The notes beneath the pieces are model-generated. The model searched no databases and was not told where the DNA came from. It worked only from the letters and a program-made list of their open reading frames with translations. 64,000 bases of DNA, from contig NZ_CP036455.1 in the NCBI RefSeq assembly GCF_004323735.1, positions 3,157,101 through 3,221,100 of the forward strand, given 5' to 3'. This document shows positions 1,425-64,000 of the stretch, one piece after another. Within the stretch, counting starts at the first letter, position 1; each line of letters begins with the position of its first letter. Made by a program: the position numbers and the translations under genes. This stretch comes from Streptomonospora litoralis. GTDB lineage: Bacteria > Actinomycetota > Actinomycetes > Streptosporangiales > Streptosporangiaceae.

Positions 1425-1720
1425 CGCCGGTGGCGGTTGCGGCGGGGCGGCCCCGGCCCGCTGGGCGGCCTTGTCGGTCTGCCGGGCAACGGGCGGACTT
1501 GACTGAAAAGCGGCGGCGAGGGCGGCGGACGGTCGGGCCCGCACCCATCGGGTCGGGTGCCCGCCGGTTGCGCTGGCCGACGGTTGCGGCCCGGCTCCAC
1601 TCGGCGGCCTTGTGATCTGCCGAGTGGCGGGTGGTCTGACGGGGAACAGCGGCGGCAACGGTGGCCACGGGGCCGGGCCCGCGCCCACCGCACCCGGTGC
1701 CCGCCGGTGGCGGTGGGCGG
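1425..1720 (+). repeat. Two tandem copies of a ~140-bp GC-rich intergenic repeat unit
   Basis: Two related copies (about 1425-1565 and 1565-1720) share the landmarks GGCGGCCTTGT, a CTGCCG core, a GAAAAGCGGCGGC or GGAACAGCGGCGGC block, CGGGCCCGC and GGTGCCCGCCGG. The same unit recurs inverted at 2400-2560 and 51965-52250, and direct at 34735-34895 and 51230-51385. Long spurious open frames cross it because of GC content, but none has a recognisable domain. Confidence 0.75.
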
Positions 1721-1935
1721 CGAACGCGGTGGGGCCGGGCCCGCGGTGGTCGGCGGCGGTCATGCAGCCGGATCGGGGCCCACGAGATGCACGTACGTGC
1801 GGCGGCGTCCGCCTCGGCGCCCTCCGAGGCGCCACCCGCGCACGGCCATTTCGCGATACGAAACAATGCGGGGCTTTTTGTCCGTCAATGCCTGATTTCA
1901 CGGTGGGCCCGCGTCCGCGCCCGCGCCGCGGCGGC
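1720..1935 (+). repeat. Conserved ~210-bp non-coding module (copy 1)
   Basis: This stretch aligns by eye at roughly 80-85% identity with 51395-51605. Shared landmarks are GGCGGCGGTCATGCAGCCGG, the 12-bp palindrome GCACGTACGTGC (1788-1799), CGCGATACGAAACA, TTTTGTCC and CGGTGGG. A later block around 2190-2225 (GGCCCGGCC then AACACGGCG) also matches 51640-51665. Small insertions and deletions between the copies shift any reading frame, so I treat it as non-coding. Confidence 0.75.
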
Positions 1936-2264
1936 GACGGCCCACGAAGCGCACCGAATGGCGCGAAAACAGCCCCCGACGTCGACTTTTCGTGCACCTC
2001 GTCGCCACGGCGCCCGCCGACGCCACCCGCAAAACGGGCATAGCCCCCCAAAAGCCCACCCCATTGGGTGGTGGGGCAGTCGGAAGCGACACCCGGGCGC
2101 AACGAGCGACGCGTCGTCGCCCCCGGCCCCCCGATCCGGCGCACCACCGGGCCGCGCGAGCACCCGCAACCGCGCCACACCCCGCGGCCCCCTGCCTGCG
2201 CGGGCCCGGCCACAACACGGCGGCGCCTCTCAGTCCCCGCGCCCGCTACGCCCGACGTTCCGAA

Positions 2265-2350
2265 GTCGACCGCGACGATCGTGGCCAAAATCCCAAAAAA
2301 CGCCGCTGGATCTCGTCATACGGGCACAATCGCCGCGCCGCCCTGCGACA
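2265..2350. repeat. Imperfect hairpin core of repeat island 1
   Basis: GCGACGATCGTGGCC near 2268 can pair, with mismatches, with GGGCACAATCGCCGC near 2333. It sits about 60 bp after the AACACGGCG landmark, the same relative place as the hairpin at 51718-51770 in island 2. It also resembles the hairpin at 61611-61692 (GGCACGATCGCCGC). This is an A/T-richer pocket in very GC-rich DNA, and no gene is present. Confidence 0.45.
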
Positions 2351-2399
2351 TAACGGGCACGCGAGCGCCTCCCGGCTCCCCGCGTCCTCGCCGCCCCCG

Positions 2400-2560
2400 C
2401 CGGGCGCGCCACCGGCGAGCACCCGACCCGGTGACTGCGGGCCCAACCGTCCGCCGCCCTCGCCGCCGCTTTTCAGTCAAGTCCACCCGCCACCCGGCAG
2501 ACCAACAAGGCCGCACAGCCGACCCGAGCCGCCGCTTCTTGTCCAGGGCGCCTGGATCCC
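2400..2560 (-). repeat. Inverted copy of the ~140-bp repeat unit closing island 1
   Basis: On the minus strand this reads like the unit at 1425-1565: GGCCTTGTTGGTCTGCCGGG, then GGACTTGACTGAAAAGCGG, CGGCGGACGG and GGGTGCTCGCCGG. The identity to the first copy over the central 60 bp is very high. Its opposite orientation gives the island long terminal inverted repeats. The rest of the gap to about 2720 shows no gene. Confidence 0.72.
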
Positions 2561-34734: not shown

Positions 34735-34895
34735 CGCCGGTGGCGGCAGTCGGCGCAGGGGCGGGCACCGATGCTGTTGGTGACTGGCAGCGCGTACGGC
34801 AGCGGATCAGGTCTGCTGTGCGATCTTGTCGGTCGGCCGGGAATCGGGTGACCTGGAGAAAAAGCGGCGGCGACCTCGCCGCCTCCTCCCCCGCC
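34735..34895 (+). repeat. Lone copy of the ~140-bp intergenic repeat unit
   Basis: Shared landmarks with the units at 1425 and 2400 are GATCTTGTCGGTC, GCCGGG, GAAAAAGCGGCGGCGA and GCCGCC. It is more diverged at its 5' side. It lies between the TetR gene and the response-regulator stop without the module or hairpin found in the islands. Confidence 0.5.
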
Positions 34896-51229: not shown

Positions 51230-51385
51230 GGGGGGGCGGGGTCGGGGTCGGGGGATCGGGTCCGCTGGGCGGCCTTGCCGGCCGGCCGGGTGAAGGGTGG
51301 TCTTCACGGGAAAGCAGCGGCAACGGCGGCAGCGGGGCCGCGCCCGCGGCCGCCGAATCGGGTGCTCGCCGGTGGCCGTCGCGGC
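51230..51385 (+). repeat. ~140-bp repeat unit opening island 2
   Basis: It matches the unit at 1565-1720: CGCTGGGCGGCCTTG, GGCCGGGTGAAGGGTGGTCT, GGAAAGCAGCGGCAACGGC and GGGTGCTCGCCGGTGGC. It is followed directly by the conserved module, just as in island 1. The preceding ~200 bp (51030-51230) show no gene. Confidence 0.72.
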
Positions 51386-51394
51386 GAAGGGCGG

Positions 51395-51605
51395 CGAGGG
51401 CGGCGGGGCCGGGCCCGCGGTGCTCGGCGGCGGTCATGCAGCCGGACCGGGGCCACGAGTCGCACGTACGTGCGGTGGTATCCGCCTCGGTGCCGCCCCG
51501 AGGGGCCACCCGCACATCGTCATTCCGCGATACGAAACAGAACCGGGTGTTTTGTCCACCAATGCACGATTTCTCGGTGGGTCCGCGCCCGCGCCGCAGC
51601 GGCGA
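51395..51605 (+). repeat. Conserved ~210-bp non-coding module (copy 2)
   Basis: It aligns with 1720-1935 almost throughout, including the 12-bp palindrome GCACGTACGTGC (51462-51473), CGCGATACGAAACA, TTTTGTCC and CGGTGGG. Orientation and order relative to the repeat unit are identical to island 1. Confidence 0.75.
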
Positions 51606-51717
51606 GGCCGCGCCACCCCGCGCGGCCGCCGGCCTGCGCGGCCCCGGCCGTAACACGGCGACACCCAGCCGGCCAACCGGCGCCGGTATGTCCGGTATGC
51701 CGACTCATCCGGCGATG

Positions 51718-51770
51718 ATCGTGATCTTATGGTCACGGAATGCGCTTTCCGGCGACCATAAGTTCACGAT
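51718..51770. repeat. Hairpin core of island 2
   Basis: ATCGTGATCTTATGGTC (51718-51734) pairs with GACCATAAGTTCACGAT (51754-51770) with one mismatch. The loop region can pair further (CGGAA with TTCCG). It lies ~65 bp after the AACACGGCG landmark, the position of the hairpin in island 1. Confidence 0.7.
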
Positions 51771-51785
51771 AGACGGGACAAGCCG

Positions 51786-51847
51786 CGCCGAGTCTGTCTG
51801 TGGGGACGGATTCGGCGCCGAATCCGTCCCCACAGACAGACTCGGCG
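51786..51847. repeat. 62-bp perfect palindrome
   Basis: Every base from 51786 to 51847 is mirrored around the centre between 51816 and 51817 (core GATTCGGCGCCGAATC, outer arms CGCCGAGTCTGTCTGTG and its complement). There is no loop, so it can form a 31-bp cruciform arm or fold back as RNA. It lies 15 bp after the hairpin core, outside any gene. Confidence 0.93.
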
Positions 51848-51949
51848 GGACCGGTGCCGCCCAGCGCAAGGTTTCGACCAGACAATGGCCGGAATCCGGT
51901 GAAAACCACGCGTTGGATGCGCCGACCGGCCCGCGGCGGCCCAACGCCG

Positions 51950-51964
51950 CCCCCCCCCCCCCCC
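51950..51964 (+). repeat. Run of 15 cytosines
   Basis: An uninterrupted C15 tract lies between the palindrome zone and the inverted repeat units. Such tracts slip during replication and sequencing, so its length may vary or be misread. Confidence 0.9.
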
Positions 51965-52250
51965 GGCCGCCGCCACCGGCGAGCACCGGGTGCGTCGACC
52001 GCGGGCCGGACCCTGCGCCGTCCTCGGTGCCCGTCGTTCCCCGTCAGGCGTCCCGCCACCCGGCAGGCCAGCAAGGCCGCCCAGCAGACCCGAGCCGCCC
52101 CCGCCGCAACCGCAACCGGCGAGCACCCGACCCGTCGACCGGGGGCCTGGCCCACTGCCGTCCTCGCCGCGGCTTTTCCCCGCAGGCGTCCCGCCACCCG
52201 GCAGGCCAGCAAGGCCGCACAGCAAACCCGAGCCGCCCCCGCCGCACGCG
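51965..52250 (-). repeat. Two tandem inverted copies of the ~140-bp unit closing island 2
   Basis: Copies at about 51965-52110 and 52110-52250 read on the minus strand with GGCCTTGCTGGCCTGCCGGG, GTGGCGGGACGCCTG and GGGGAA (K) blocks, then GGTGCTCGCCGG. The two share long identical stretches, suggesting recent duplication or gene conversion. They end ~65 bp before the mshC stop codon. Confidence 0.75.
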
Positions 52251-61610: not shown

Positions 61611-61692
61611 CCCATATGCGCGGATTTGCCGCTGCGATCGTGCAGGGAGAAGCACCGCTGAAGAACGGCACGATCGCCGCTCCGTTATGCGG
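61611..61692. repeat. Imperfect inverted repeat upstream of the RecD-like gene
   Basis: GCGATCGTGC (61634-61643) pairs exactly with GCACGATCGC (61668-61677), and flanking CATATGCGCGGA / TCCGTTATG pair partly. GGCACGATCGCCGC resembles the hairpin at 2333-2346, and CCGGTATGCCC just before it resembles the approach to the island 2 hairpin. It starts 11 bp after the reductase stop. Confidence 0.5.
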
Positions 61693-63806: not shown

Positions 63807-63875
63807 CGGCGTCTATTGCGCGGAAATCGCCACGGATCGGCCTTGGACGTGGTGATTTCCGCGCAATAGACGCCG
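63807..63875. repeat. 28-bp-stem hairpin
   Basis: CGGCGTCTATTGCGCGGAAATC (63807-63828), then CCACG, pair with CGTGG and GATTTCCGCGCAATAGACGCCG (ending 63875). The total is 28 positions per arm with a single mismatch and a 13-base loop. It lies in the gene-free right end of the window (63662-64000), just before another copy of the repeat unit. Confidence 0.92.
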
Positions 63876-63894: not shown

Positions 63895-64000
63895 CGCCGC
63901 GCCCGCCCGGCCACGGGAGCAGATAGCGCCGGCGCGGGCGGGAGGGGCCGCCGCCGTTGTCGCCGCTTTTCCTCCCAGGCGACCCGCCCCCGCCCGGTGC
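63895..64000 (-). repeat. Partial copy of the ~140-bp unit at the window's right end
   Basis: On the minus strand it reads GGGCGGGTCGCCTGGGAGG, AAAAGCGGCGACAACGGC, like the GAAAAGCGGCGGCGA block of the other units. The window ends inside it. With the hairpin just before it, this repeats the hairpin-then-inverted-unit order of islands 1 and 2. Confidence 0.5.

Follow-up and report, generated by a model that had tools for sequence, protein, structure and literature searches.

The island at positions 1425–2560 of the window, by which we mean the whole 64,000-nt stretch of Streptomonospora litoralis DNA analysed here (NZ_CP036455.1; its genome, which comprises a 5.72-Mb chromosome and a 90-kb contig, is labelled G000), raises the question of what kind of element carries inverted repeat arrays around a non-coding core, and how it came to occupy its site. 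An initial annotation had described the island as bounded by inverted copies of one unit and had matched it to no known class. Profile searches show that island 1 comprises, from left to right, two minus-strand units, a 471-nt core, a hairpin zone of ~180 nt and one plus-strand unit. The left units lie at 1455–1581 (outer; unit profile E 3.2e-29) and 1592–1712 (inner; E 1.8e-19), and the right unit at 2401–2528 (E 2.6e-31). The inverted boundaries are thus confirmed, with E values from 2e-19 to 3e-31, and so is the layout of inverted units around a core, except that the left side carries two units rather than one. The core (1752–2222, plus strand) is full length and non-coding (core profile positions 1–465, E 1.9e-127), and its 3' terminus is AACACGGCG. 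The adjoining zone (2213–2396, plus strand; zone A profile E 1.2e-49) is of the type we call A, and the hairpin proposed within it folds, as DNA, no better than shuffled sequences (z +1.57).

Island 2 shows the same order of parts by unit, core and zone profiles, in agreement with the initial annotation. It has one left unit (51256–51376, minus strand, E 3.4e-24), a core with an internal deletion (51426–51660, plus strand), a type B hairpin zone (51650–51955, plus strand; zone B profile E 2.7e-86) and two plus-strand right units (inner, 51965–52094, E 2.2e-23; outer, 52111–52232, E 8.5e-26). The core appears as two core-profile matches, 51426–51606 and 51605–51660 (E 8.8e-50 and 3.2e-4), which join core positions 1–181 to 410–465; positions 182–409 are missing. 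Two hairpins within the zone, at ~51718–51770 and ~51790–51843, are stronger than their shuffles when folded as DNA (z −5.2 and −9.8, respectively). The islands had been said to differ in hairpin and spacer sequence, and this is reflected in the two zone types.

Other parts annotated in the window fared less evenly. A lone half unit does exist near the position reported, 34735, and its place is 34807–34878 on the minus strand (unit profile positions 57–129, E 1.8e-12). At E ≤ 1 neither zone profile matches the hairpin at 61611, which folds no better than its shuffles (z −0.48); its proposed status as a solo part is not supported. Of a third set proposed at the window end, we recover a plus-strand unit fragment at 63948–64000, which is cut by the window and extends to ~64023 in the genome (unit profile positions 53–130 of 130, E 2.6e-7), and a strong hairpin at 63807–63875 (z −8.77 as single-stranded DNA); the core profile is unmatched there and neither zone profile matches the hairpin at E ≤ 1, which leaves its membership of the family uncertain. 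This hairpin is long, nearly perfect and downstream of a gene, and is possibly a terminator or a member of another repeat family.

The islands are not unique to the window. A 1136-base query containing island 1 gave 261 matches in G000, and two core landmark patterns, at ≤3 mismatches, were found at 70 and 72 places, compared with 5 and 0 for reversed-pattern controls, well above background. Iterated nucleotide profiles gave 83 core matches, which merge to 76 copies (39 plus, 37 minus); as these derive from pattern searches and from BLAST under scoring caps, 76 is a lower bound. The units, ~140 bp long and in tandem, number 0–5 per side, and both sides are occupied in 65 of the 76 copies. All 314 units near cores are orientated as expected, minus to the left and plus to the right of the core, with no violations. 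The copies span 215–1945 bp (mean 1173) and total 89 kb, or ~1.6% of the chromosome. Cores are full length in 54 copies and partial or internally deleted in 22, with identities among full-length cores of 78–99.8% (mean 84%); the first 40 cores, aligned with their borders, are 72–99.8% identical. A coding gene within the core was considered and rejected, since in each of the six frames between 25 and 37 of the 40 aligned copies carry stops. When the 76 regions around islands were searched by tblastn with IS5 transposase, no matches were seen at E ≤ 1. The copies look intergenic and non-coding, the intergenic label being approximate because our own gene caller sometimes ran gene starts into islands. 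With regard to a plasmid or phage origin, no match was found. An 18-base core pattern had no matches in viral contigs and one in genome contigs, in a Kapaibacterium MAG, which is taken as chance.

Some copies are almost identical to one another, for example a pair that shares 99.5% identity over 1085 bp at a distance of 21 kb, and several such pairs lack detected terminal repeats (described below), which means that transposition need not lie behind recent copying. Near-identical tracts that stop inside the unit arrays suggest gene conversion between copies; the arrays themselves would grow and shrink by unequal recombination. Core identity declines weakly with distance (Mantel r −0.11; 0.1% of 2000 permutations reached so low a value), a pattern consistent with conversion or hopping on a local scale. 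Transposition as the sole cause of near-identical copies was set aside, as the extents of the identical stretches do not support it.

When outermost units were aligned with their outward flanks, conservation was seen to pass beyond the unit and end abruptly at a sharp terminus, a terminal inverted repeat of 15–17 nt, TARGCCGTGTTTAAGAA. There are two end types: a short one, which closes in ...CCGGCGTTCTTRAACACGGC(C/T)TA, and a long one, in which ~40 further nt precede the same terminus. Of 152 ends, 43 carry the terminal repeat at ≤4 mismatches (33 of them at ≤2), compared with 68 of 3400 equal-length control segments (2%), and the other 109 lack it. By the same threshold, 14 of the 76 islands carry both terminal repeats and 15 carry one. 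The ends are asymmetric: among 37 ends at ≤3 mismatches, 31 follow a scheme with the short type on the left and the long type on the right, and 6 do not. A TA dinucleotide adjoins 29 of the 43 ends (29/39 in the checked set), with a C directly before it in 21 of these 29; the background is 0.98% TA among dinucleotides in the retrieved DNA, where CTAG is rare (0.23 per kb). By hand count, TA is found on both sides of 9 of the 14 two-ended islands, and is missing from at least one side of the other 5. Neither window island has a clear terminal repeat at its ends, bar one weak candidate at 2536–2549 (plus strand), possibly a decayed right terminal repeat of island 1, with 4 mismatches and no adjoining TA. 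Where copies lack termini, as both window islands do, they have presumably decayed.

A search of the whole genome for the terminus at ≤2 mismatches gave 52 places, compared with none for the control. Units were found in 18 of 19 further regions around these repeats (a count that leaves out region L187), which brings the family to at least 94 loci. Both repeats are present at ≤2 mismatches in five of these regions, all short two-ended copies, and TA lies on both sides of four of the five (hand count). The terminus also has a bearing on neighbouring genes. In 9 of 39 ends a called gene has its stop codon precisely at the terminus (six TAA, two TGA and one TAG), and the six TAA stops are made up of the target TA and the first base of the element. 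As CTAG contains the stop TAG, and the start of the element puts A or G after TA, an insertion at a gene end can leave the gene terminated, which helps to explain how so many intergenic copies are tolerated. Taken together, the inverted terminal repeats, the TA beside them and the asymmetry of the ends, as seen on many copies, lend good support to the earlier suggestion of a dispersed, non-autonomous mobile family.

The terminus itself indicates which enzyme may have moved the islands. It is rare, being found at ≤1 mismatch in 5 of 297 genomes of the host family (25 places in G000, nine in G004, five in G023 and one each in G029 and G205), and at no place in the congeners G001, G002, G003 and G005. 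The five places in G023, which belongs to another genus, lie on five near-identical elements of ~1.04 kb (L188, L193, L196, L199 and L202); the pattern matches one end of each, the other end being three bases off. These elements carry an open transposase frame encoding a 302-aa IS5-family transposase (NF033580, 245 bits, cut-off 110; DUF4096, DDE_Tnp_1), and their terminus is TAGGCCGTGTTTAAGAA. Over 17 bases, the short-end consensus of the islands agrees exactly with one end of the G023 element; as an observation in its own right, this exact sharing of a terminus with another genus hints that an IS5-family element has passed between genera. The closest relatives within the window's own genus are six elements in G005, 82–87% identical to those of G023, again with an open transposase frame. 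Their termini, TAGGCCCTGTTTAAGAA, are one base off the terminus of the islands (one of the 12 ends differs by a further base), and they are flanked by CTAG or TTAG. In G000 we see no match to the G023 transposase at E ≤ 0.001, and beyond the terminal repeat the islands have no significant similarity to either element. The partner transposase is apparently now missing from G000, and the family orphaned, as judged from sequence. A related IS5-family element is present in many copies in the congener G002 (contig C1; 36 rows of matches, of which many are divided between two frames), where six aligned copies are CTAG-flanked and have different ends.

A different mobile mechanism, whether IS630-type, Y1/REP-type or spread by recombination only, would make the IS5-like terminus a coincidence. 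Targeting of TA or CTAG is also typical of IS630, and IS630/Tc1 was our first guess as mobiliser from these motifs; moreover, G000 holds three IS630-family copies that are 99.8–100% identical over ~1.15 kb (L218:1300–2516, L219 and L221, at ~1968640, 3903000 and 5228000), one of which directly adjoins the right terminus of an island copy. The IS630 copies nonetheless end differently, in TGTTCTGCGCCTGAAATCC, and it is the IS5 elements of G023 and G005 that share the ends of the islands, so IS630/Tc1 was dropped. Given the 17-base identity with the G023 end and the rarity of the terminus in the host family, we consider any such alternative mechanism improbable.

We then have the question of how the islands are distributed among related genomes. 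The core is represented in five congeners by short weak pieces only (three in G004, two in G003, none in the others). The units are shared with G004: a 12-kb query containing island 1 gave 286 matches in G004 and, among the matches listed, most fall on unit positions. All 18 G004 islands examined have arrays of half units (~72 bp per step), minus to the left and plus to the right, with 178 unit matches in total, around an inner gap of 515–1252 nt that contains several long hairpins. The 465-nt core profile of G000 finds no match in these 18 islands. A profile of the G004 core weakly matches a number of hairpin zones of G000 (best E 1.9e-12; island 2, 6.1e-10), and the reverse search, with G000 zone profiles in the G004 islands, gives nothing at E ≤ 0.001. 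The hairpins of G000 and G004 may thus be distantly related by sequence, though the 465-nt core is not detectably shared. At ≤3 mismatches, no terminal repeat is seen on the 36 outer ends of the 18 islands. Nested in the G004 core lies a stretch of ~290 nt that carries a degenerate version of the terminal repeat (7 of 18 loci at ≤3 mismatches). A palindromic stretch of ~290 bp with the same type of terminal repeat is also found without nearby units at nine G004 loci (L192, L195, L198, L201, L204, L206, L208, L210 and L212).

For six of the 18 islands of G004, the flanks could be placed well in the G000 regions examined. Of these six sites, one is occupied in both genomes (that of island 1), one has a right flank that abuts a G000 island, two are situated beside a lone G000 unit and two are island-free in G000, with gaps of ~147 bp; these proportions are biased towards sharing because the G000 regions compared had been picked for having islands. 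One G004 flank (L149 right) with a weak G000 match of 115 bits was excluded. Conversely, one G000 island has only ~86 bp at its G004 site. The comparison of empty sites that the initial annotation had proposed thus places the boundaries of the islands approximately, no empty site being resolved to the base. At the site of island 1, we see no island in G005, G002 or G003, and a conserved stretch of ~930 bp is present instead. In G005 (L166:1698–2813; the G002 copy is L167) this stretch lies within a 371-aa open frame that, by eye, resembles an aldo/keto reductase. It has weaker matches elsewhere, which suggest paralogues.

The islands might alternatively be chromosome sites that benefit the host, such as sites for nucleoid organisation or insulators of replication forks or transcription, kept at fixed positions. 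No twelfth of the chromosome is free of copies, convergent gene pairs are somewhat overrepresented around them (22 of the 76 copies compared with 55 of 295 long gaps, by our own rough gene caller), and island 1's site is occupied in G004 too. We nevertheless regard this explanation as highly improbable, in view of the even use of strands, the uneven spacing (3 to 14 copies per twelfth) and the 22 of 76 cores that are incomplete. The comparison of genomes argues in the same direction: the core is lacking from five congeners beyond short weak pieces, four of them (G001, G002, G003 and G005) lack the terminal repeat at ≤1 mismatch, and at mapped sites two G004 islands are absent from G000 and one G000 island is absent from G004.

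The hairpin zones raise the further possibility of a function at the RNA level. Among the 64 copies that keep the AACACGGCG end of the core, the zone directly downstream is of type A in 22 and of type B in 42. The long palindromes, S3 and S4, are carried by type B zones, and the original picture of constant ends with variable palindromes fits these copies. S4 has 10 distinct variants, in which 93% of cells are Watson–Crick and 6 of 28 pairs show changes on both sides, compared with 0–2 pairs when the pairing is slid by 1–3 bases; S3 has 27 distinct variants, with 86% Watson–Crick cells and both-side changes at 3 of 20 pairs (slid control, 0–1). The islands might be structured multi-copy ncRNA genes, with core and hairpins selected as one RNA and the C-rich outward arrays (unit consensus C 62, G 38) acting as Rho-type terminators, and the near-constant core length, the many invariant blocks in the 40 aligned copies and the paired changes in S4 would all agree with this. 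In a symmetric tally of palindrome mismatches, G-T is about as frequent as A-C (S3, 28 and 36; S4, 3 and 6), giving no sign that the palindromes are selected as one particular RNA strand. The pairs chosen by RNAalifold disagree, with an excess of G-T over A-C (94 v 19 and 81 v 14), a count that is biased because the program admits G-U pairs. The RNAalifold energy of the core is weak on both strands (−87 and −94 for 590 columns), and Rfam covariance models at gathering scores have no matches in the window. As an RNA gene would also leave the terminal repeats and TA unexplained, and the core is not detectably common to G004, we think this account unlikely.

Overall, the data are best explained by a large non-autonomous DNA transposon of the type II MITE-like kind, of which the islands are copies and which is mobilised in trans, now or formerly, by a transposase of the IS5 family. 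This enzyme would recognise TARGCCGTGTTTAAGAA and insert at TA, with a preference for TA within CTAG, duplicating the TA. We regard this explanation as very probable. The class follows from a terminus shared with IS5 together with similarity that is confined to the terminal repeats, and it replaces the earlier view that no known class applies. The islands appear from their sequence to be mobile, and the shared terminus would point to cross-mobilisation, the element having probably jumped with another element's enzyme. In the mechanism we propose, an IS5-type transposase from another element would recognise the ~15-nt termini, everything between them would be cut out or copied and then placed at a TA, best of all inside CTAG, and insertion would duplicate the TA. 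After insertion, the number of units in the arrays would change and copies would exchange sequence. The intergenic placement of the copies would fit TA/CTAG targeting combined with selection. Several observations sit less easily with an IS5-mobilised transposon, namely the 109 of 152 ends in G000 and all 36 outer G004 ends at which the terminus is not seen, the 5 of 14 two-ended islands that miss TA on at least one side, the likeness to IS5 elements in the terminal repeat only, the several near-identical pairs without detected terminal repeats, and the approximate nature of all empty sites.

Among known systems, type II MITEs are described as resembling their autonomous IS only in the terminal repeats, as including truncated copies without them, and as 50–500 bp in size (PMC10969869). 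The islands likewise match an autonomous IS only in their terminal repeats, occur in truncated copies, carry terminal inverted repeats at both ends of some copies and have no transposase coding capacity. Their mean span of 1173 bp (215–1945) and elaborate interior differ from that description, and we call them MITE-like rather than typical MITEs because the size limit, which is a convention, is exceeded. The nearest published element that we found is BrickBuilt of Porphyromonas gingivalis, a MITE that is non-coding and always intergenic, with IS5-family terminal repeats, an internal minisatellite of 23-bp units, no transposase remnant, variable duplications and 19 copies, both terminal repeats being present in 4/19 (PMC4596501). 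The likeness extends to the IS5-type termini, intergenic placement, internal repeats and small share of copies with both termini. Compared with BrickBuilt as it is described there, the islands are more numerous (at least 76 copies against 19), have larger units (~140 bp against 23 bp), have a conserved core and hairpin zone flanked by two inverted arrays, have TA by their ends rather than variable duplications, and lack a matching transposase in their own genome (PMC4596501).

Two further systems share some traits with the islands. PATEs of Haloquadratum are transposase-free, palindromic, dispersed and subject to core deletions, as are the islands, and are related to IS605, without terminal inverted repeats or target duplication (PMC3119063); the islands, with their terminal repeats and TA, fall outside the PATE definition given there. 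ISMysh01 of Mycobacterium shottsii is also an IS5-family element of an actinobacterium with CTAG at the insertion site, and differs in being autonomous (930 bp) and in the 4-base CTAG repeats reported for it (PMC9241763), TA being the shared part for the islands. In the open-access literature we found no bacterial foldback element, and no actinobacterial MITE, of such build. The two inverted arrays, the large units, the conserved core and hairpin zone, the size, the number and the missing partner set this family apart from BrickBuilt.

In eukaryotes, animals and plants among them, Foldback and Galileo elements have very long inverted ends of tandem subrepeats around a variable middle. The islands are similar in that their long inverted ends consist of tandem units, 0–5 per side and with none of 314 misorientated, and in that the middle varies, the G004 islands sharing units without a match to the 465-nt core; they differ in being bacterial and in having a 15–17-nt terminal repeat outside the arrays, and the likeness is one of build only. 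A Mutator/Foldback family has been named in a nematode (PMC3169594). We tentatively suggest, as a possibility that we regard as less likely than not, that the islands are the bacterial equivalent of foldback transposons. Their inverted satellite arrays would then act as ends prone to recombination, copies at partly shared sites would be homogenised within species, and between species the middle would be replaced (G000 has the 465-nt core, G004 a different middle of ~0.5–1.25 kb), with long perfect palindromes kept by correction at the DNA level and not by RNA function.

Finally, these data serve as a warning for annotation, as such islands can pass for RNA genes or regulatory regions. The two congeners, with shared units and different cores, offer a natural setting in which concerted evolution, the growth of satellites and the maintenance of palindromes can be studied in bacteria. 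In short, the family would extend the known forms of bacterial non-autonomous elements, with ~1.6% of a GC-rich chromosome made up of foldback-built, non-coding elements that are apparently orphaned.
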